The notes under the pieces: model-generated | What the model was told of the DNA's origin: nothing | Seen by the model: only the letters and a program-made list of their open reading frames with translations | The model's database searches: none | Part shown: positions 16,623-53,741 of the stretch, piece by piece | How the letters are laid out: each line of letters begins with the position of its first letter | Position numbering within the stretch: position 1 is the stretch's first letter | Made by a program: the position numbers and the translations under genes | Assembly: GCF_000299355.1 (NCBI RefSeq) | Contig: NC_018664.1 | Location: 310,001-374,000, forward strand | Direction: 5' to 3' | DNA length: 64,000 nt | Origin: Gottschalkia acidurici 9a | GTDB lineage: Bacteria; Bacillota; Clostridia; Tissierellales; Gottschalkiaceae

Positions 16623-17756
16623 TTGAAGAGAATTGTATCGCTGATTCTGATAATAGCTTTAACTATGGGAATCCTATCTGGATGCAAAGAAAAAGCAAAA
16701 AAAACTAGTAGTGAAGCTGTTGAGCAGGAAAAATACATACCAGTTAATGTGGAAAATGTAGATGCTAGAACAATATCAGAAAAAACCACCTTTAGTGGTA
16801 AAATCATTCCTAATAAAGAAGTAATGGTGTTTCCTAAGATACCAGGAAAAGTTACTAGTTTGAATGCTGAGGTTGGTAAAACCGTAAGTGCGGGTTCAGT
16901 GCTTTTCACAATAGAGCAAGATGATATACAAAAACAAGTTGATCAAGCTAAGAAGTCAGTAGACATAGCATGGTCTAATTATGAAAAAGCTAAAGAACAA
17001 ATAGACAACGCAAAAGTAAACTTTGAGAGAACGAAAGAGCTTTATGAAGAGGGAGCTATACCTAAATCACAATATGAGCAAGCAGAACTTGCAGCTTCTG
17101 ACTCTACATTAAATACTATTAGGATTCAGTGTGAACAAGCAGAACTCGCATATAATCAGGCATTGGACTCTTTAAAAGATACAACGACGGTGGCTTCTAT
17201 TGGTGGAGTGGTTTCAGCAGTAAATATAAATCAAGGTGAGATGGCATCAGGGGCACAACCAGCAGTGACTATAGTAGACGTTAGTAAACTATATGTTCAA
17301 ATAGATGTACCTGAAAATATCATAAGTAAAGTATCTGTAGGACAAAAGGTGGACATAGAGGTTCCATCATCAGCTGAGAAAAAGTTAACTGGTGTAATTG
17401 AAGTAGTAAGTCCTACTACAGACCCTAGAACTCAACTATATCAAGTAAAAGTTCTTATAAATAATGATGGTAAAGCTATAAAGTCAGGGATGTTTGCTAA
17501 AGTATCTTTAAACACTTATTCCAAAGTAAATGTTACTGCAGTAAAGAGTGATGCAGTATTAGAAGATGGCGGAAAAACTTACGTATACTTACTTCAAGAC
17601 AATAAAGCTGTAAGAAGAGATGTAAAAGTGGGATTTGATACAGGAGAATATATTGAAGTGGTAGAAGGACTTAAAAAAGGAGAGACTATCATAACAAAAG
17701 GGCAACAATACGTGGAAAATGGCTCTAAAGTAAAAGTCATTAGGGGTGAGGAATAA
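16623..17756 (+). CDS. RND efflux membrane-fusion (periplasmic adaptor) lipoprotein
   Basis: 377 residues. A lipoprotein signal with lipobox LSGC (lipidated Cys near 21) is followed by the HlyD/AcrA layout: barrel-sandwich half-motif (VMVFPKIPGKV), helical hairpin (about 95-185), second lipoyl half (TVASIGGVVSAVNINQG) and beta-barrel/membrane-proximal domains. It links the RND pump to the outer part of the system. The start is TTG at 16623 behind AAGGGGG. The stop overlaps the RND start by one base (TAATG), pointing to coupled translation. Confidence 0.92.
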   Translation: MKRIVSLILIIALTMGILSGCKEKAKKTSSEAVEQEKYIPVNVENVDARTISEKTTFSGKIIPNKEVMVFPKIPGKVTSLNAEVGKTVSAGSVLFTIEQDDIQKQVDQAKKSVDIAWSNYEKAKEQIDNAKVNFERTKELYEEGAIPKSQYEQAELAASDSTLNTIRIQCEQAELAYNQALDSLKDTTTVASIGGVVSAVNINQGEMASGAQPAVTIVDVSKLYVQIDVPENIISKVSVGQKVDIEVPSSAEKKLTGVIEVVSPTTDPRTQLYQVKVLINNDGKAIKSGMFAKVSLNTYSKVNVTAVKSDAVLEDGGKTYVYLLQDNKAVRRDVKVGFDTGEYIEVVEGLKKGETIITKGQQYVENGSKVKVIRGEE

Positions 17757-20700
17757 TGAATTTATCTAAGATATCAGTTAATAAACCAGTAACTACTATA
17801 ATGGTTGCCCTAATTGTAGTGATTCTTGGAGCTATATCTTTATCAAGATTACCTATAGATTTACTTCCTGAAATGGACATCCCTGTAAGTGTTGTAATGA
17901 CTACATATGAAGGTGTTGGACCTCAAGAAATAGAAGAGCTCATTACTAAACCTCTAGAGAACTCAGTATCTACAGTGTCTAATATAAAGCAAGTAAGCTC
18001 TACATCTTCAGAGGGAGCTTCAATTATCATAGCAGAATTTACTCAAGGCACGGACATGGATTTTGCAGCATTAGAAATGAGAGAAAAGATTGACTTAGTA
18101 AAAGGATTTTTACCACAAGATGCTAAAGATCCAATGGTTATTAAAGTCGATCCTAACTCTATGCCAGTATTACAACTTGCTATTACAGGTAATGAAGACT
18201 TATCTGAGTTACAGACTATAGGTGAAGATACTATACAGCCTAGACTAGAAAGGATTGCAGGGGTTGCATCTGTAAGTATATCAGGTGGATATGAGAATCA
18301 GATAGAGATAATCGTAAATGAAGAAAGATTAAAAGGATATGGATTATCAATAGATAGTATATCTCAAGTTTTAAGAGCAGAGAACTTGAACTTACCGGGT
18401 GGAGAAGTGACGAAGGGTTCTCAGAAGCTTACGATTAGAACTAAAGGACAGTTCACTTCTTTAGATGAGATAAAAAATCTTTCTATTCCATTGTCAAGTG
18501 GTGGAGTAGTAGCTTTAAAAGATGTTTCTGAAGTAAATATGACTTACAAAGATATTAGTTCAATAGTTAAATCTGATGGTAAAAGAAGTATGAGTGTCTC
18601 AATACAAAAACAATCAGGAACTAATACTGTAAAAGTAGTAGAAGCTATACATGATGAAATAAAGAAACTTCAAAAAGATCTACCGGGTGTGAAAATAGAT
18701 GTAGTTATGGATCAGTCAGTTTATATAAAAGATTCAATTAACAATGTAGTTGATAATGCTATATCTGGTGCTGTATTAGCTGTAGCTATACTATATTTAT
18801 TTTTAAGAAACGTTAGATCAACGCTTGTAGTTGCTACATCAATACCTATGTCTATAATATGTACTTTCATACTTATGTACTTTAATGGTATAACTCTTAA
18901 CCTAATGACCTTAGGGGGACTAGTATTAGGGATAGGTATGCTAGTTGACAATGCTATAGTTGTTCTTGAGAATATATATAGATTCAGAGAAGAGGGACAT
19001 TCAAAGATAGAAGCAGCAGTGAAAGGTGCTGGCGAAGTTGGCATGGCAGTAATTGCATCAACTTTAACAACACTGGCAGTATTTCTTCCAATTGCCTTTG
19101 TGGATGGTATGGCAGCTGTTATGTTTAAAGAACTTGCGCTAACTATAAGTATGTCTTTAATAGCATCACTATTAGTATCGATAACTATAGTTCCGATGTT
19201 ATCATCAAAGTTACTAGAAATTGATGAAACAAAAGAAAAAAAACGTCGTGGAATATTTAAAATATTAGGAATATTTGATTTCTTCCATGATATATTTGAT
19301 AAGGTATTTGAAAAGGTAGAAAATATTTATAAGAGAATATTAAGATGGGCATTAAACCATAGAAAATCAACAATATTGATTGCATTAGGAATATTCCTAG
19401 GAACTATATCTTTGATTCCAGCTATAGGTATGGAGTTTTTTCCTAACATGGATCAAGGTGAATTTACGATAAATGTAAAATTACCAGAAGGGTCTGAACT
19501 GGATAAGACTGATAATATAGTACAGCAAATTGAAGGTCATCTTGAGAAAATAAAAGAAATAGATGCTATATTCTCTAGTGTAGGATCTTCCGGAAATCAA
19601 ATGCAAATGGGAAGTAATGGATCTAATAATGGAACTATTAATGTAAGATTGAAAGATTTAAAAGATAGAAATAGGTCTGTAGATCAGGTAGCTGATGAAG
19701 CTAGAAATTTTGTTAAAGATATACCTGGAGCAGAAATAAGCGTTCAAGTAAGTTCTATGACTTCAGGATTTGGTGGAGGAAGTCCTGTTAATATAAAAAT
19801 TAAAGGAGACAACTTAGACAAGCTTGAAATAATTGGAGAAGATGTAAAGGAAATAGTAGAATCTGTTGAAGGAACTAGAGAAGTTAAAAGTAGTATGGAA
19901 GAAGGAATACCAGAAGTTCAAATAGTAGTTAATAGAGAAAATGCTTCGCATTACGGACTAACAGCAGCACAAATTGCGTCATCAGTAAAAGGAAATATAT
20001 CAGGACAATTAGCTACAAGATACAAATTAAATGAAGAGGAAATAGATGTATTTATAAAAGGGGACAGTATATATAAAGAGAGTATATCAAATTTAAGACA
20101 GTCATCTATAAATACACCACTTGGAATAACTATTCCTCTAGAGCAAGTTGCTAATGTAGTAATAGAAAAAGGTCCTATTACTATAGATAGAGAATCACAA
20201 GTAAGAACAATAAGTGTTTCAAGTCAAATAGTAGATAGAGATTTAGGAAGTATAACGAATGATATAGAAGAAAAACTATCAAAATATGATATGCCAGAAG
20301 GGTATACTTATGAATCGGGTGGAGAAAATAAAGAAATGATGGAATCATTTAAAAGTCTATTGTTAGCTTTACTTCTTGCACTTGTGCTAGTATACATGGT
20401 TATTGCTTCACAGTTTGAATCATTATTACATCCGTTTACTATAATGCTATCAGTACCACTTGCTTTTTCAGGTGGAGCTCTGGGGCTATTTGTAACTGGA
20501 AGATCTTTAAGTGTTCCAGCATTTATAGGGGTAATTACACTAGCCGGTGTAGTTGTTAATAATGCGATAGTTCTAATTGACTATATTGAAATTAGAAGAA
20601 AAAGTGGAGAGGAAAGACAAGAAGCCATTATAAATGCAGGGCCAATAAGACTTAGACCTATACTTATGACTACATTAACAACTGTTCTTGGTCTTATTCC

Positions 20701-20884
20701 AATGGCTTTAGGTATAGGAGATGGGGCTGAAGCAATGGCTCCAATGGCAACAGTAGTTGTAGGAGGATTAACTTTATCTACAGTTTTAACACTTGTATTT
20801 GTACCTGTTATGTATACTATGTTTGATGACTTAACTAAATTTATAAAAAGAAAGATATTTAGAAACAAGACAGTAGAAGCTTAG
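17756..20884 (+). CDS. RND-family efflux transporter (AcrB/SwrC-like)
   Basis: 1042 residues, full length for the family. The N-terminal membrane helix with VNKPVTTIM and the LPIDLLPEMDIP motif, two large extracytoplasmic loops, and two sets of membrane helices (around 335-490 and 860-1025) with GMLVDNAIVVLENI and GVVVNNAIVLIDYI are all present. It uses the proton gradient to expel hydrophobic compounds. In monoderm Firmicutes the relatives are SwrC/YerP, which export surfactants. Here it is encoded with a TolC-family protein and a lipoprotein adaptor. Confidence 0.96.
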   Translation: MNLSKISVNKPVTTIMVALIVVILGAISLSRLPIDLLPEMDIPVSVVMTTYEGVGPQEIEELITKPLENSVSTVSNIKQVSSTSSEGASIIIAEFTQGTDMDFAALEMREKIDLVKGFLPQDAKDPMVIKVDPNSMPVLQLAITGNEDLSELQTIGEDTIQPRLERIAGVASVSISGGYENQIEIIVNEERLKGYGLSIDSISQVLRAENLNLPGGEVTKGSQKLTIRTKGQFTSLDEIKNLSIPLSSGGVVALKDVSEVNMTYKDISSIVKSDGKRSMSVSIQKQSGTNTVKVVEAIHDEIKKLQKDLPGVKIDVVMDQSVYIKDSINNVVDNAISGAVLAVAILYLFLRNVRSTLVVATSIPMSIICTFILMYFNGITLNLMTLGGLVLGIGMLVDNAIVVLENIYRFREEGHSKIEAAVKGAGEVGMAVIASTLTTLAVFLPIAFVDGMAAVMFKELALTISMSLIASLLVSITIVPMLSSKLLEIDETKEKKRRGIFKILGIFDFFHDIFDKVFEKVENIYKRILRWALNHRKSTILIALGIFLGTISLIPAIGMEFFPNMDQGEFTINVKLPEGSELDKTDNIVQQIEGHLEKIKEIDAIFSSVGSSGNQMQMGSNGSNNGTINVRLKDLKDRNRSVDQVADEARNFVKDIPGAEISVQVSSMTSGFGGGSPVNIKIKGDNLDKLEIIGEDVKEIVESVEGTREVKSSMEEGIPEVQIVVNRENASHYGLTAAQIASSVKGNISGQLATRYKLNEEEIDVFIKGDSIYKESISNLRQSSINTPLGITIPLEQVANVVIEKGPITIDRESQVRTISVSSQIVDRDLGSITNDIEEKLSKYDMPEGYTYESGGENKEMMESFKSLLLALLLALVLVYMVIASQFESLLHPFTIMLSVPLAFSGGALGLFVTGRSLSVPAFIGVITLAGVVVNNAIVLIDYIEIRRKSGEERQEAIINAGPIRLRPILMTTLTTVLGLIPMALGIGDGAEAMAPMATVVVGGLTLSTVLTLVFVPVMYTMFDDLTKFIKRKIFRNKTVEA

Positions 20885-20900
20885 AGAGGGTGACCAATAT

Positions 20901-21482
20901 ATGTCTAATATAAAAGATAAAAGAAGCAGTATACTACAGGCATGTATTAAAGTATTCTCTCAAAAAGGATATCATAAGGCTACCATTGAGGATATCGCAA
21001 ATGAAGCTGGTATAGGAAAAGGAACAGTTTATTTATATTTTTCAAGTAAAAAAGAATTATTTGAACAAATGATAGAATACTCTTTAGACAGATACTACAG
21101 TGGTATAAATGAAATATTACTAAAAGATATAACCATAAGAGAAAGATTAATAGAATTAGCAAAATTCCATCATAAATATTTATTGCAATATATTAATTTA
21201 GCTCATACAATGATTGGTCAATCAAGTCCAATATCTTCGGATAAAATAAAGTCTATGGCTAATATTAAAAGAGAGAGATTAAAAAATCTTTTATATAAGT
21301 TTATAGATGATGGTATTGCAAGCGGAGATATCAGAAGTGATATAAATAAAGAAATTGCATGGATATCTATTATGTCAACAATAAATCAATACTATGTAGA
21401 TAAATTAAACTATAACAAAGAGTATTCAAGTGATATTGATCCTGTACAATTAGCAGACTTTTTAATGAAGTCAATATCCTAA
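20901..21482 (+). CDS. TetR/AcrR-family transcriptional regulator
   Basis: 193 residues. The N-terminal TetR helix-turn-helix (about 8-55: ILQACIKVFSQKGYHKATIEDIA, then GTVYLYFSSKKELFEQM) is clear; the C-terminal ligand domain is divergent as usual. It starts 16 bases after the RND gene, preceded by AGAGAGGGTGA. The likely operator is the palindrome at 15372-15389 in front of the operon, giving ligand-relieved repression. Confidence 0.93.
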   Translation: MSNIKDKRSSILQACIKVFSQKGYHKATIEDIANEAGIGKGTVYLYFSSKKELFEQMIEYSLDRYYSGINEILLKDITIRERLIELAKFHHKYLLQYINLAHTMIGQSSPISSDKIKSMANIKRERLKNLLYKFIDDGIASGDIRSDINKEIAWISIMSTINQYYVDKLNYNKEYSSDIDPVQLADFLMKSIS

Positions 21483-22724: not shown

Positions 22725-25700
22725 ATGAATTTTCTAGATGGAATGAATGACAGACAAAAGGAAGCTGTACTTGCTACTGAGGGACCCCTTTTAGTCCTTG
22801 CAGGAGCAGGTAGTGGTAAAACTAGAGTGTTAACTTATAGAATAGCACACTTAATAGAAGAAAAAGGTGTAAGTCCTTATAGTATATTAACACTTACATT
22901 TACAAATAAAGCTGCTAATGAAATGAAAGAAAGAATAAAAAAACTTATAGGTGATAGAGTAGATGACGTATGGGCAGGAACTTTTCACTCTATCTGTGTG
23001 AGAATTTTAAGAAGAGATATAGATAAGATTGGATATGATAGAAGTTTTGTAATATATGATACTACAGATCAAAAAACTTTAGTTAAAGACTGTATAAAAG
23101 AAAAAGATCTGAATGAAAAAATGTATGATCCAAACTCAATGCTAAATTTTATAAGTTCTCAGAAAGACAAGCTTATTTCGCCAGAGATGTATATAAAGGA
23201 AAACGATGGAGATTTTAGAGAAAGACAAAAAGGAGAACTTTATGCGCTCTATCAGAAGAAACTCAAAGTAAATAATGCACTAGATTTTGATGATCTTATA
23301 GGGAAAACTATAGAGCTACTAAAAGATAATCCAGATGTATTAGAATACTACCAAAATAAGTTTAAATATATTCTTGTAGATGAGTACCAAGATACTAATA
23401 GAGCTCAATACACTTTAATAAGACTATTATCAGAAAGATATAAGAATATTTGCGTAGTTGGCGATGACGATCAATGCTTAGTTGAGGGCATGAAAGTTAA
23501 CACTCCAAATGGTGAAATTCCTATAGAAAAGCTTTTAGAAAACGATAAAGTGTATTCTCCTTCTGGATGGGGAAAAGTTATGGAAGGAAGTATTAATAAA
23601 GTTATAAAAAAAGAATATAATGGATCTATAGTTAATATAAAAACTAAATCCGGAAAAGAGATAAAACTTACTCCAAATCATATAACTTTTGCTAAATTAA
23701 ATCCTGAAGTAGGAATATATTATGTATATTTAATGTATAAGAAGGAATTAGGATATAGGATTGGACAAACTCAAGGGGTAAGATCTAAAAGAAAAGGCGA
23801 TATCTGTAATGGATTAGCTGTTAGACTTAATCAGGAAAATGCAGACAAGATATGGATATTAAAAGTTTGTGAAAGCAAAGAAGATGCATCATATTATGAA
23901 CAATTATATGCTTTCAAATACAATATACCTACAGTTTTATTCCATCCAAGATCAAGAAGAATTAACTTTAATCAAGAGTATATAAATCGTCTATATAGTG
24001 AGATAGATACTCACAATAACGTGATAAAACTTATGGAAGATTTAATGGTATTTGAAGAATACCCACATCATAGGGCAGGTGCTGTAATAAGAAATAATAC
24101 CTTTAGAAGATTAGTAAAACTAACGTTTTTTGGAGGCAGAGTAACAGGGGAAGAATCAGGATGGCATAGTCATAGAATATGCTTGAATACTTCAGGGGAA
24201 GAATTAAGAGAAAAGGCAGAATCTTCAAAATTTCCAGTAAGAGATGGAAAAAGAGAAACATGGAGGGTAGAGACTGAAAGAAAAGATTATGATGAGATAA
24301 ATGAATATGCTAAAAAGCTAATGGCTTTGCATGATGATTTAGAAGTAGATAGAAGGACTAAACTAACAGAAGATACAGCATTTAATTATATGCCGGCTTC
24401 TCATATAAAGCCTTCTATGAGTATTGCAGTACTTGAAGACAATAAAATAAAAGAGGACATAGTAGAAGAAGTTATTATAGAAGAATATAATGGATTCGTT
24501 TATGATATATCAGTGCCAAACTTTAGACAATATATATCTCAGGGAATAGTAGTTCATAACTCAATATATGGATGGAGAGGAGCAGATATAAGAAATATAC
24601 TAGATTTCGAAAAAGACTATCCTCAATCTAAAACTATAAAATTAGAACAAAACTATCGTTCAACAAAAACTATATTAAATGCTGCGAATTCAGTTATAGG
24701 AAATAACTTAGGTAGAAAAGGAAAAGATCTGTGGACTTCTAATGAAGATGGTAACTGTATCAATATATATAATGCATCAGACGAGCATAGTGAGTCGCAA
24801 TTCATAGTATCAAAGATAAAGGAAATAGTAGAAGAAAAAAGCTTAAATGACTTTGCTATACTTTATAGAACAAATGCCCAATCACGTGTAGTAGAGGAAA
24901 GTTTGATGAGATCCAATATACCTTATAGAATTGTAGGAGGATTAAAATTCTACGATAGAAAGGAAATAAAGGATATAGTAGCTTATCTAAGAGTTATTCA
25001 AAATCCTGTGGACAATATTAGTTTAAAAAGAATAATAAATACTCCTAAAAGAGGGATAGGTAAAACTACAATAGATAAAGTAGAGAGCTATAGTGTAGAA
25101 AAAGGGGAAAGCATGTATAGTGTTATGATAGATGCAGAAGAAATACCAGGGCTTTCTCAAAGAGCTGTTAATAACTTAAAAGACTTCATATCAAATATCG
25201 GAAAATTCATGGCTATGAAAGAATTATTAGGAGTAAAATCTTTGATAGAGAATGTAATAGATTCAACTGGATATATAAGAGAACTAGAACAAGAAGATAC
25301 AATAGAAGCAAGAGGTAGAATAGAAAATATAGAAGAGTTCTTATCTGTTGCTATAGACTATGAAAATAGCAGTGAGGAAAGCAACTTAGAAGATTTTCTA
25401 GCTAATATATCACTTCTTTCAGATATAGATAGATTAGATGAAGAAGAAACAGATACAGTTACACTTATGACTCTACACAGTGCGAAAGGTCTTGAATTCC
25501 CAATAGTATTTATGGTCGGAATGGAGGAAGGTCTATTTCCTTCATCAAGAGCACTTACAGATGAAAATCAATTAGAAGAAGAGAGAAGACTTTGTTATGT
25601 AGGTATAACTAGAGCAGAACAAGAGCTTTTCATGACTTACTCTAACCAACGTATGCTATATGGAAAAACTAACTATAATATACCTTCGAGATTTTTAAGA

Positions 25701-26018
25701 GAGTTACCAGAAAACTTAGTTGAAGGTTGTAATAAAGATAAATCCATTATTAAAGATATAAATAAGGCGAGTAATATGGGAAGTACAAGTAGTAAATATT
25801 TTAAAGGATTTGCTATTGAATATAAAAAACCTGAACCTAAGAAAGTAAGTGGAGCGGGAAAAATAAGCACGGGTTCAAAAGTAAAGCATAAATCATGGGG
25901 AGTAGGAACTGTAGTACAAGTAAAAGGTGAAGGAGACAGTACCGAGGTAACTGTAGCATTTGAAAGTCAGGGAATTAAAAAGATTATGTTAGCCTATGCA
26001 CCTATAGAAGTTATATAA
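22725..26018 (+). CDS. pcrA: ATP-dependent DNA helicase PcrA/UvrD, interrupted in frame by an intein
   Basis: 1097 residues as encoded; removing residues 251-612 leaves a 735-residue helicase, the normal PcrA length. Helicase motifs: Walker A AGAGSGKT (26-33), VDEYQDTN motif II, the Q/GDDDQ-SIYGWRGA motif III split by the intein, QNYRST motif IV, TLHSAKGLEFP motif V and GITRAEQ motif VI. The C-terminal Tudor-like segment (KHKSWGVGTVVQV) binds RNA polymerase in relatives. It unwinds DNA in repair and replication conflicts. The gene starts a pcrA-ligA-gatCAB array common in clostridia. Confidence 0.96.
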   Translation: MNFLDGMNDRQKEAVLATEGPLLVLAGAGSGKTRVLTYRIAHLIEEKGVSPYSILTLTFTNKAANEMKERIKKLIGDRVDDVWAGTFHSICVRILRRDIDKIGYDRSFVIYDTTDQKTLVKDCIKEKDLNEKMYDPNSMLNFISSQKDKLISPEMYIKENDGDFRERQKGELYALYQKKLKVNNALDFDDLIGKTIELLKDNPDVLEYYQNKFKYILVDEYQDTNRAQYTLIRLLSERYKNICVVGDDDQCLVEGMKVNTPNGEIPIEKLLENDKVYSPSGWGKVMEGSINKVIKKEYNGSIVNIKTKSGKEIKLTPNHITFAKLNPEVGIYYVYLMYKKELGYRIGQTQGVRSKRKGDICNGLAVRLNQENADKIWILKVCESKEDASYYEQLYAFKYNIPTVLFHPRSRRINFNQEYINRLYSEIDTHNNVIKLMEDLMVFEEYPHHRAGAVIRNNTFRRLVKLTFFGGRVTGEESGWHSHRICLNTSGEELREKAESSKFPVRDGKRETWRVETERKDYDEINEYAKKLMALHDDLEVDRRTKLTEDTAFNYMPASHIKPSMSIAVLEDNKIKEDIVEEVIIEEYNGFVYDISVPNFRQYISQGIVVHNSIYGWRGADIRNILDFEKDYPQSKTIKLEQNYRSTKTILNAANSVIGNNLGRKGKDLWTSNEDGNCINIYNASDEHSESQFIVSKIKEIVEEKSLNDFAILYRTNAQSRVVEESLMRSNIPYRIVGGLKFYDRKEIKDIVAYLRVIQNPVDNISLKRIINTPKRGIGKTTIDKVESYSVEKGESMYSVMIDAEEIPGLSQRAVNNLKDFISNIGKFMAMKELLGVKSLIENVIDSTGYIRELEQEDTIEARGRIENIEEFLSVAIDYENSSEESNLEDFLANISLLSDIDRLDEEETDTVTLMTLHSAKGLEFPIVFMVGMEEGLFPSSRALTDENQLEEERRLCYVGITRAEQELFMTYSNQRMLYGKTNYNIPSRFLRELPENLVEGCNKDKSIIKDINKASNMGSTSSKYFKGFAIEYKKPEPKKVSGAGKISTGSKVKHKSWGVGTVVQVKGEGDSTEVTVAFESQGIKKIMLAYAPIEVI
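23475..24560 (+). other. Intein in PcrA with GIY-YIG-like endonuclease insert
   Basis: The 362-residue insert starts with Cys (C251, CLVEGMKV) and ends His-Asn, followed by Ser of the host (VVHN|S), the standard splice-junction residues. Block B (TPNH at intein 66-69) and blocks F/G (VYDISVPNFRQY and the final VVHN) are present. Between them, GIY (intein 80-82), YRIG (94-97), Arg-rich GLAVRLNQE and a conserved Glu in YYEQLY (141-145) resemble a GIY-YIG nuclease, not the more usual LAGLIDADG type. It sits in the ATPase motif III of the helicase, a conserved site typical for inteins. Confidence 0.9.
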
Positions 26019-26048: not shown

Positions 26049-28203
<2,155 letters not shown>

Positions 28204-51330: not shown

Positions 51331-51458
51331 AAATAGAAAGAATAGATATCTGAGAATACACTAATTGAATATGTAAGCAACATTGAGGAATAAACACTGA
51401 GAAATATTAATACTATGATAGCATAATGCATTTGTTTAAATTAAAAAGGAGGAATAAT

Positions 51459-52385
51459 ATGCTATCAAGCAATGAGTTTGTAAGACGATCTTTAGAGGTA
51501 CATATCTTTTTCGCTAGAATTATGAAAGAGCATTCACTTTTTTTACAATTAAGCTTTACACCAAGAGATGCAAGTTTTTCTAGACGTGCAGATGAACTTA
51601 GAATGGAGTTTGACGAACTTTTATGGGACGTTGTATGTTTATCAAATGGTGTCATAAGAAATAGTGTTATTAACTCAGGTGAAATAGTAACACCGTATAC
51701 ATTAAGAGCGGAGAACATAACTTCATATCTTACGGGTGTAAAAATACCAGAGTATATTACAAAGGCAGAAATGGAGTTAAGAGCAGGAACATGTAAGAAT
51801 TTTGACCCTGCATTTGAAAGAGGTGTATGTACACTTAATAATAGGGCAATAGATTTGATAAGATCGATAATAGAATTTAAGTCTAGTGTCTTATCTAATG
51901 TTTTATCATGCAAAATGTTTACGACTAACTATCCATTGATGATAGATCATATTTTAAGGGAAGCTAAGTTATATTTACGAATGATTACTAAGCTTCAGAA
52001 AAGAGAAAATATCGACATAGAAAAAGAAATTTATGGTCAGGAGTTATTCTGGAATAAAATGATGGCAGATCACTCTAAATTTATACGTGGATTACTAGAT
52101 CCTACTGAAGAAAACTTAATCAAATTAGCTGATGACTTTGCCAAAGAATTTGATAAATTAACAAAAGAACTGAAAGCAGCTATTGACAAGTCTCTGCCAA
52201 CGGATAAGATTACTGATGCAATATTTGAAGCTACAAAGAAAGTTCATAATTTTAATACACAAAGTACAAAAGGAATACTAGACTGTGAAATAAGATCTAT
52301 AATAATTCCTTTACTAGGAGATCACGTACTTCGTGAAGCGAATCATTTCATAAGACTATTAAAAAGTTTTCAGGAAGAGGATTAA
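51459..52385 (+). CDS. DUF2935 protein, copy 1
   Basis: 308 residues, predicted helical bundle of the DUF2935 family. Two related halves are visible: FFARIMKEHSLFLQ near the N-terminus and LFWNKMMADHSKFIRGLLDP in the C-terminal half, each with His/Glu that could bind metal, as in ferritin-like proteins. Function unknown. The ATG at 51459 follows AGGAGG; the frame upstream of it is not translated in a sensible way. About 80 percent identical by eye to the copy at 52815, which arose by tandem duplication. Confidence 0.85.
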   Translation: MLSSNEFVRRSLEVHIFFARIMKEHSLFLQLSFTPRDASFSRRADELRMEFDELLWDVVCLSNGVIRNSVINSGEIVTPYTLRAENITSYLTGVKIPEYITKAEMELRAGTCKNFDPAFERGVCTLNNRAIDLIRSIIEFKSSVLSNVLSCKMFTTNYPLMIDHILREAKLYLRMITKLQKRENIDIEKEIYGQELFWNKMMADHSKFIRGLLDPTEENLIKLADDFAKEFDKLTKELKAAIDKSLPTDKITDAIFEATKKVHNFNTQSTKGILDCEIRSIIIPLLGDHVLREANHFIRLLKSFQEED

Positions 52386-52740: not shown

Positions 52741-52814
52741 AGGAATAAATACTAAAAAATATTAATACATATGATAGCATAATGTATTTGTTTAAATTAA
52801 AAGGGAGGAATAAT

Positions 52815-53741
52815 ATGCTATCAAGTAATGAATTTATAAGACGATCTTTAGAGATACATCTATTCTTTGCTAGAATTATGAAAGAGCATTCGTTTTTTTT
52901 ACAATTAAGTTTTACACCAAGAGATGCAAGTTTTTCTAGACGTGCAGATGAACTTAGAATGGAGTTTGATAAGCTTCTATGGGAGGTTGTTTGTTTATCA
53001 AACGGTGTTGTAAGTTCCAGTGTTATTAATTCAGGAGAAATAGTAACGCCATATACATTAAGAGCTGAAAATGTATCTTCATATCTTACTGGCGTAAACA
53101 TACCAGAGTATATTACAAAGGCAGAAATGGAGTTAAGAGCAGGAACATGTAAAAATTTTGACCCTGCATTTGAACGTGCTATATGTGCACTCAATGATAA
53201 GGCAATAAAATTAATAAGGGATATAATAGACTTTAAGTCTAATGTTTTATCGAATGTCTTATCATGCAATATGTTTACATCCAACTATCCTTCTCTAATT
53301 GATCATATTATGAGAGAGGCTAAGTTATACTTACGAATGATTATTAAACTTCAAAAAAGAGAAAGGATTGACTTGAAAAAAGAAAACTATGGTCAAGAAT
53401 TATTCTGGAATAGGATTATGGCGGATCATTCCAAATTCATACGCGGATTATTAGACCCAGATGAAGATGATTTAATAAATATAGCTAATAACCTCGCTAA
53501 TGAATTTGATGAATTAACAAAAGAACTGAAAGAAGCTATTGATAAATCCTTGCCAATTGATGATATTACTGATTCAATTCTTAAAGCTGCAAATAAAGAG
53601 GTTGATTTTAATACACAAGGTATAGAAGGAATATTAGACTGTAAAATCAAATCTATAATAATACCTTTACTAGGAGATCACGTACTTCGTGAAGCGAATT
53701 ACTTTGTAAGATTATTAAAGAGCTTTCAGAGAGAGGATTAA
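52815..53741 (+). CDS. DUF2935 protein, copy 2
   Basis: 308 residues, same architecture as copy 1, including FFARIMKEHSFFLQ and LFWNRIMADHSKFIRGLLDP. Differences cluster in the C-terminal third, while the N-terminal block around SFTPRDASFSRRADELRMEF is unchanged. The ATG follows GGGAGG. Product of tandem duplication; both copies are open and probably expressed from their own upstream copies of the same leader. Confidence 0.85.
   Translation: MLSSNEFIRRSLEIHLFFARIMKEHSFFLQLSFTPRDASFSRRADELRMEFDKLLWEVVCLSNGVVSSSVINSGEIVTPYTLRAENVSSYLTGVNIPEYITKAEMELRAGTCKNFDPAFERAICALNDKAIKLIRDIIDFKSNVLSNVLSCNMFTSNYPSLIDHIMREAKLYLRMIIKLQKRERIDLKKENYGQELFWNRIMADHSKFIRGLLDPDEDDLINIANNLANEFDELTKELKEAIDKSLPIDDITDSILKAANKEVDFNTQGIEGILDCKIKSIIIPLLGDHVLREANYFVRLLKSFQRED

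Follow-up and report, generated by a model that had tools for sequence, protein, structure and literature searches.

The stretch of DNA analysed here (the window) comprises 64,000 nucleotides of Gottschalkia acidurici 9a and carries on its forward strand an open reading frame of 1097 aa (22725-26018) that was identified as pcrA by profile TIGR01073, with 1002 bits against a cut-off of 911.2. The frame is interrupted by an intein of 362 residues (ORF residues 251-612, 23475-24560) that runs from Cys1 to a terminal His-Asn, is followed by Ser, and is inserted at VGDDDQ/SIYGW (the slash marks the splice junction), which we take to be helicase motif III. A first-pass annotation had given the same length, boundaries and junction residues, and these were exact by ORF reading and by profiles. 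The features of the locus are as follows.

22725-26018, + strand: pcrA, intein-containing precursor, 1097 aa (TIGR01073 over cut-off)
22725-23474, + strand: N-extein, 250 aa, last residues VVGDDDQ
23475-23702, + strand: N-terminal Hint half, intein residues 1-76, with Cys1 and T66-P-N-H69 (profiles, model, conservation)
23709-23930, + strand: predicted GIY-YIG-type nuclease domain, intein residues 79-152 (AlphaFold model, conservation, hhalign positive with a broad and negative with a narrow alignment, VIA)
23727-23729, + strand: Tyr85, putative equivalent of the GIY tyrosine (85/85 copies; register from the UPF0213-type alignment)
23754-23765, + strand: Y94-R95-I96-G97, putative altered YIG motif (R95 and G97 in 85/85; hhalign)
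23823-23825, + strand: Arg117, first helix of the nuclease domain (84/85)
23898-23900, + strand: Glu142 in the last helix, which hhalign pairs with the Glu helix of UvrC (84/85)
23967-24074, + strand: two helices and a YPHH segment, residues 165-200, P197 in 85/85 (model, conservation)
24081-24374, + strand: alpha/beta domain, residues 203-300, probable DNA-recognition domain (models)
24381-24560, + strand: C-terminal Hint half, residues 303-362, ending in His361-Asn362 (profiles, model, conservation)
24561-26018, + strand: C-extein, first residues SIYGWRGAD

The intein is far from a singleton and belongs to a large family in which decayed, mini and empty alleles occur, wider than the first-pass annotation had stated. 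A profile of the insert gave matches in 106 fetched loci, reduced to 102 rows and 95 distinct intein sequences (partial, mini and decayed ones included) after removal of re-fetched copies; seven row pairs are one sequence fetched twice, and conservation is counted on the 85 distinct full-length copies. All 97 rows with both junctions share one insertion point in a UvrD/PcrA-type helicase, Q/[SC][IV][YF], with Ser or Cys as the +1 residue. Named carriers belong mostly to the Bacillota, Elusimicrobiota and Chloroflexota, the others being a single Candidatus Moraniibacteriota and a carrier recorded as Actinomycetota. Among species genomes, 131 relatives of the insert were detected and 80 of these kept, and a draw of 398 genomes from the phylum gave four matches: the window's own, two clear ones and a weak one (L120, E 1e-3). 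There was no second copy of the insert in the own genome, where the sole other match (L002) had an E value of 0.06.

Across 60 whole genomes including the window's own, PcrA was present in all, the intein being full-length in 12 (split over two contigs in G057), decayed in two (324 residues), reduced to a mini-intein in four (206-208 residues) and absent from 41; G059, where the gene is split over two contigs, was left out of these classes. All 41 empty sites read as uninterrupted VVGDxDQ/[SA][IV][YF], and intein-free alleles, which the first-pass annotation had proposed to look for, are thus present.

By sequence and model, the window insert is a class-1 intein with a predicted Hint fold. Intein profiles scored over their curated cut-offs (Pfam Intein_splicing, 50.2 vs 35.8 bits; TIGR01445, 45.3 vs 24.5; TIGR01443, 17.4 vs 15.6), and Cys1, T66, H69, H361 and N362 were present in 85/85 full-length copies. 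In the AlphaFold model of the whole intein, built from 60 sequences (mean pLDDT 93.9, pTM 0.90), the Hint part resembled solved inteins with Z values of 15.6-21.0 among the matches listed, the comparison with 2in9 giving Z 21.0 and rmsd 1.6 over 132 aligned residues; the structure search with the whole intein was dominated by this part. At 0.307, the G+C content of the intein does not differ from that of the gene (0.310) or the window (0.308), and composition is thus uninformative on a recent arrival.

Residues 79-152, which follow the N-terminal Hint half, most plausibly form a divergent GIY-YIG homing nuclease, as predicted from the model and from conservation. GIY-YIG domains have the element order strand-strand-helix-strand-helix, with the two motifs on strands 1 and 2, an Arg on helix 1 and a Glu on a later helix. 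The model shows this order (DSSP strands 82-89, 93-100 and 125-132; helices 113-120 and 135-149), with the candidate motifs on strands 1 and 2, Arg117 on helix 1 and Glu142 on the later helix, followed by helices 167-176 and 179-189 and then by an alpha/beta domain at 204-295. Modelling of the nuclease insert alone gave a similar fold (pLDDT 90.7, pTM 0.80). The structure prediction recommended in the first-pass annotation therefore yielded a topology that fits GIY-YIG, and the unrelated fold that it had named as a refutation did not appear. The GIY-YIG fold is described as three strands and three helices in the available part of a 2006 survey (PMC1564403).

The GIY-YIG-like stretch contains many of the invariant positions of the intein. 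Tyr85, Arg95, Gly97, Glu121 and Trp127 were invariant in the 85 copies, and Arg117 and Glu142 were each found in 84 (L096 lacks Arg117 and L013 lacks Glu142). The first-pass annotation had listed GIY, YRIG, Arg and Glu in the order of GIY-YIG nucleases; all four are present as stated (GIY 80-82, YRIG 94-97, Arg117, Glu142), but the literal GIY is an unconserved neighbour, and the conserved equivalent would be Y83-V84-Y85 according to the alignment with UPF0213-type proteins. Position 94 is merely aromatic (Tyr in 78 copies, Phe in seven) and position 95 is always Arg, for which reason Arg95 is read as the occupant of the YIG tyrosine place. That YRIG replaces YIG and may mark a distinct branch, as the annotation had suggested, was borne out by the presence of this Arg in 85/85 copies and in ten extracted phage and plasmid members, and by an hhalign register that puts YRIG on the FKIG of T5orf172.

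Searches against known nuclease families gave a mixed answer. The Pfam GIY-YIG profile (PF01541) matched the window copy with 12.6-13.6 bits, pairing window residues 82-145 with positions 2-68 of the 78 in the profile; the HMM search proposed in the first-pass annotation thus returned the expected family in the right place, but below its cut-off of 22.6 bits. The same profile matched 18 of 60 family members (best E 0.0013). As the YIG tyrosine is absent and the score is under the cut-off, the domain is filed outside canonical PF01541, and the element is classified from sequence and model as a class-1 intein with a predicted divergent homing nuclease of the GIY-YIG superfamily. Among the families listed for these 60 members, there was no Pfam match to T5orf172 (PF10544) or MUG113 (PF13455), none to an HNH family (25 families listed), and a single one to LAGLIDADG families (LAGLIDADG_3 in one member, E 0.09, below cut-off, insert residues 140-191). 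The insert of the window was without a match in NCBIfam, where scattered single or double matches occurred among the 60 members, and its profile search of solved structures returned two matches only, both noise. A Pfam YwpF match in 24/60 members (best E 3.2e-4) was taken as noise, as were other scattered Pfam matches, and a PHROGs homing endonuclease family in 4/60 members (best E 0.008, among 53 families, 25 of which are listed) was treated likewise. Elsewhere in the genome, the best PF01541 match (L128, C2:2551678-2551899) contains two internal TAA codons and is perhaps a short or broken gene.

In hhalign comparisons, the nuclease alignment of the 60 members did no better against UPF0213-type GIY-YIG proteins than column shuffles, the scores against the UvrC, UPF0213-type and T5orf172 sets being reached by 6, 7 and 14 of 100 shuffles, respectively. 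Between known GIY-YIG families, this test did detect the similarity (0/100 shuffles each), and the failure of the narrow alignment is therefore a real negative. A broader alignment, which combined 20 rows (every third of the 60) with the ten phage and plasmid members and was built after the narrow failure, hence not blind, gave scores that were reached by 1, 1 and 0 of 100 column shuffles against UvrC, UPF0213-type proteins and T5orf172. For the first two, the top shuffle equalled the observed score, and the hhalign probabilities were still only 17, 8 and 3% for the three sets. The register was at the Glu helix for UvrC, over nearly the whole domain for the UPF0213-type proteins and at the two strands for T5orf172.

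Structure comparison of the insert with the PDB by VIA gave seven rows over the nuclease part among the matches listed, with Z values of 4.0-5.0, all under 8: UPF0213 1zg2 (5.0), restriction enzyme 9u75 (4.8), UvrC 1yd6 (4.5) and 1yd4 (4.0), and Slx1 6seh (4.4), 6sei (4.3) and 4xlg (4.0). The seven are GIY-YIG proteins, with 9u75 a putative one; the UPF0213-type loci used here came from the PF01541 search; the title of the UvrC structure names GIY-YIG, and Slx1 and UvrC are both named as GIY-YIG proteins in the available part of the 2006 survey (PMC1564403). Foldseek found no PDB match to the insert below E 0.001 and placed LAGLIDADG meganucleases first (best E 0.026, probability 0.21, rmsd 16.7); a LAGLIDADG origin of the alpha/beta domain would fit these weak Foldseek rows, whereas VIA ranked eIF1 and shell proteins. 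Among viral models, a GIY-YIG-like endonuclease (E 3.8e-4, rmsd 20) and a group I intron endonuclease (E 6.6e-4, rmsd 17) superposed poorly, with an uncharacterized protein between them (E 3.8e-4 to 6.6e-4, rmsd 17-21). The best three viral-model matches, a protein without a name, a helicase and a protein named methyltransferase, were taken to carry the same insert.

The nuclease is under purifying selection. In a crude dN/dS comparison of 12 pairs (NG86), eight pairs of intact copies gave 0.05-0.14 for the nuclease, with synonymous sites near saturation in several; L062/L096 gave 0.07 (L096 being the copy without Arg117), L098/L100 and L017/L019 gave no value, and L014/L018 are mini-inteins without the nuclease domain. 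Between L065 and both L067 and L070, the nuclease shared 79-80% identity as against 65% for the Hint part. The decayed pair L017/L019 carries the substitutions Tyr85Cys, Arg95Lys, Gly97Lys and Arg117Leu, with the splicing residues and Glu142 kept, and the four mini-inteins have lost the nuclease and kept a shortened alpha/beta stretch.

The history of the intein departs from that of its host gene. The window intein and that of Tissierella simiarum (L037) are sisters in the intein tree (99/97), a grouping rejected by the helicase (p-AU 1.3e-11), and the helicase clade was mildly rejected by the intein (p-AU 0.042), both clades having been named for the AU test after the trees were seen. This conflict indicates that the intein moves between lineages. 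In the helicase tree, the sisters of the window, of L005/L006 and of L009 are L020, L025 and L032, respectively, all three of them intein-free, and presence and absence require at least seven changes of state among 29 rows. The helicase genes of L009 (full) and L032 (empty) agree at 724 of 750 bases to the left of the site and at 1355 of 1400 to the right, or about 97% DNA identity, with no sign of a co-conversion tract in this flank comparison.

The residues around the insertion site (window 23463-23474 and 24561-24575) read DDDQ/SIYGW in 17/17 intein-bearing alleles (full, decayed and mini) of the related genomes as against 8/41 empty ones. The remaining empty alleles depart from this sequence at the third-last position before the junction (E, A, S, N, G, P or F), at the position preceding the aromatic residue (K, S, A or R) or at both positions. 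Counted by independent pairs on the 29 tree rows, four to five of six differed in the same direction and none in the opposite one (sign test, p 0.06); among the 97 rows as a whole, the intein occupies many other site sequences. The difference could stem from resistance to cutting, from requirements of splicing or from co-conversion of the flanks.

Relatives of the nuclease module were also found in phages and plasmids. Two viral contigs have an intein in a helicase at VGDPLQ/C, and a tblastn search of 50,697 phage records with the insert gave 67 matches at E <=1, three of them over 80% of the query, including E. coli phages of the phi92 kind, SPO1-like Bacillus phages, Vibrio phage RYC and Streptococcus phages. 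Distant relatives sit in cyanobacterial plasmids too, and a search with the Nostoc plasmid member matched 66 phage and four plasmid records at E 0.01. The ten members extracted share [VT]YLM, [FYW]R[VI]G, an Arg, W[VI][LI] and a Glu in the next stretch, and by eye the segment at residues 165-200 is present in phage members as well. A plasmid protein of Thermobispora, recorded as an AAA family ATPase and by eye a UvrD-type helicase, carries the module. In Streptococcus phage phiD12 (L223, 894-2987), the module lies within an intein-like insert (Cys ... THN/C) of a second kind of host protein, recorded there as a ParB-like nuclease and in sister phages as an adenine-specific methyltransferase or DNA methylase. 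Matches were obtained in 15 Streptococcus phage records.

Several other open reading frames were noted in these loci. A free-standing ORF that is by eye a canonical GIY-YIG protein (GIYQIINN...VYIG; L034, 2368-3003) directly precedes an intein-bearing phage helicase, and an HNH-like ORF, also by eye, stands at the corresponding place in L033 (2303-3019). A Providencia rettgeri plasmid has an open stretch with the nuclease motif and no gene listed (L225, 1932-2264), which may belong to an intein or be a remnant. A nuclease match in a 485-kb uncultured phage (L226, LR745208.1) lies in a stretch of 4318 bases with no ORF of 150 aa listed under table 11, which may reflect a reassigned stop codon.

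Among the closest known elements are the UvrD-type helicase inteins of SPO1 (gp34.33, 275 aa) and CampHawk, whose records annotate an intein in the helicase. They occupy the corresponding helicase place (VGDDDQ/C...HN/SMYSF in CampHawk) and contain the same nuclease module as the window intein, in the form VYLM...FRVG...R...EA...E, but at 275 aa most of the alpha/beta domain is missing by length. The rows of the records and the available part of the CampHawk announcement name an intein and give no nuclease type for it. LAGLIDADG inteins such as PI-SceI and PI-PfuI, which run through a homing cycle, likewise combine a Hint fold with an inserted nuclease and differ from the present family in the type of that nuclease, the sub-threshold LAGLIDADG match being confined to one of 60 members. 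Endonucleases of group I introns of the I-TevI type share the predicted nuclease type and the expected life style, but are intron-encoded or free-standing and have a canonical YIG, whereas the window domain is fused within an intein and has Arg. The T5orf172/MUG113 branch resembles the window family in having a basic residue where canonical members have the YIG tyrosine, although this is Lys instead of Arg; the present family further differs by its location inside inteins and by the absence of PF10544 and PF13455 among the families listed. T5orf172 is described as a GIY-YIG subfamily with one Glu-dependent nuclease in the available text of PMC10448857. The split class 3 intein AceL NrdHF is also associated with a GIY-YIG-type nuclease, encoded there by a separate gene between the split halves and in another host gene, in contrast to the fusion within a continuous class-1 intein seen here (PMC7891396, as far as its text is available).

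In the available parts of the literature, intein nucleases are mostly LAGLIDADG (PMC5050341), GIY-YIG is counted among homing families in general with LAGLIDADG the commonest in inteins (PMC7765530), and the 2006 survey states that the GIY-YIG type had not been found in inteins (PMC1564403). A term look-up for words starting with 'GIY' gave none in PMC5050341, PMC8966425 and PMC10663303, and the accessible parts of PMC3943268, PMC5874633 and PMC7824862 held nothing nearer to a GIY-YIG domain in an intein. No description of a GIY-YIG domain fused in a continuous intein was found in this literature, largely without subscription papers, so that priority is not established. If the assignment is true, the branch adds a nuclease type to those of inteins, makes compact natural Hint-GIY fusions available and makes SPO1 a phage for a direct test of intein homing by a GIY-YIG enzyme. 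The full, decayed, mini and empty pcrA alleles within one bacterial order are a ready set for tests of the homing cycle.

The window element is very probably a mobile class-1 PcrA intein that homes by means of a divergent GIY-YIG endonuclease domain in which Arg stands at the YIG tyrosine position. Once the precursor has been translated, the two Hint halves (residues 1-76 and 303-362) would excise the intein and restore PcrA; the excised intein would bind an empty pcrA site, probably through the alpha/beta domain (residues 203-300), and its GIY-YIG domain (residues 79-152) would break the DNA at or near the VGDDDQ/SIYGW codons, after which repair templated by the intein-bearing allele would copy the intein into the empty gene. 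For the family as a whole, we consider it likely that this is an undescribed, old and mobile GIY-YIG branch, with Arg for the YIG tyrosine, fused in continuous inteins, which occurs mainly at one site of UvrD/PcrA-type helicases in several phyla and in phages such as SPO1, has reached at least one other host protein (of the ParB/methylase type in Streptococcus phages) and passes through full homing cycles, hosts being partly protected by changes of the site. Counted against this explanation are the PF01541 score below cut-off, the failure of the narrow hhalign alignment, the PDB Z values under 8, the first place of LAGLIDADG in Foldseek, the missing YIG tyrosine, the Glu142 kept by decayed copies and site residues that can be explained otherwise.

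Since the YIG tyrosine is replaced in every copy and structure matches are low, the fold could be real and the change from Tyr to Arg could have made it a DNA-binding, non-cleaving module, with the intein persisting by descent and occasional recombination. This appears unlikely, as the six T5orf172 rows compared also have Lys and not Tyr at that place, the GIY-YIG Glu is reportedly required by one T5orf172 nuclease (PMC10448857, available text), each of Tyr85, Arg117 and Glu142 persists in 84-85 of the 85 full-length copies, the decayed pair loses Tyr85, Arg95, Gly97 and Arg117 together, and the intein and helicase histories conflict. The same conflict, well supported in the trees, argues against an ordinary non-mobile intein whose scattered presence reflects loss from a common ancestor, as do the full and empty alleles of L009 and L032 in nearly identical helicase genes and the repeated changes of state. 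Exteins and inteins both broadly follow phyla and loss does occur, as seen from the mini and decayed copies, yet this explanation seems very unlikely. The least likely of the explanations weighed here is that the nuclease is of another type (LAGLIDADG or HNH), with GIY-like motifs by coincidence and the alpha/beta part a degenerate LAGLIDADG half. It draws on the meganucleases in the first PDB rows of Foldseek and on the one LAGLIDADG_3 match, and is opposed by the lack of HNH and of further LAGLIDADG matches among the families listed for the 60 members, by the many invariant positions of the GIY-YIG-like stretch and by the retention of just this stretch in short phage inteins such as that of SPO1.

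The surroundings of pcrA in the window were also read. The next gene (26197-28203) encodes an NAD-dependent DNA ligase by reading of its translation, and a membrane fusion protein of the HlyD type, an efflux pump of the AcrB type and a regulator of the TetR type lie in a row ahead of pcrA (16623-21482). Further downstream, two adjoining DUF2935 genes (51426-52385 and 52782-53741) share 80% identity over 319 residues and form a tandem duplication.
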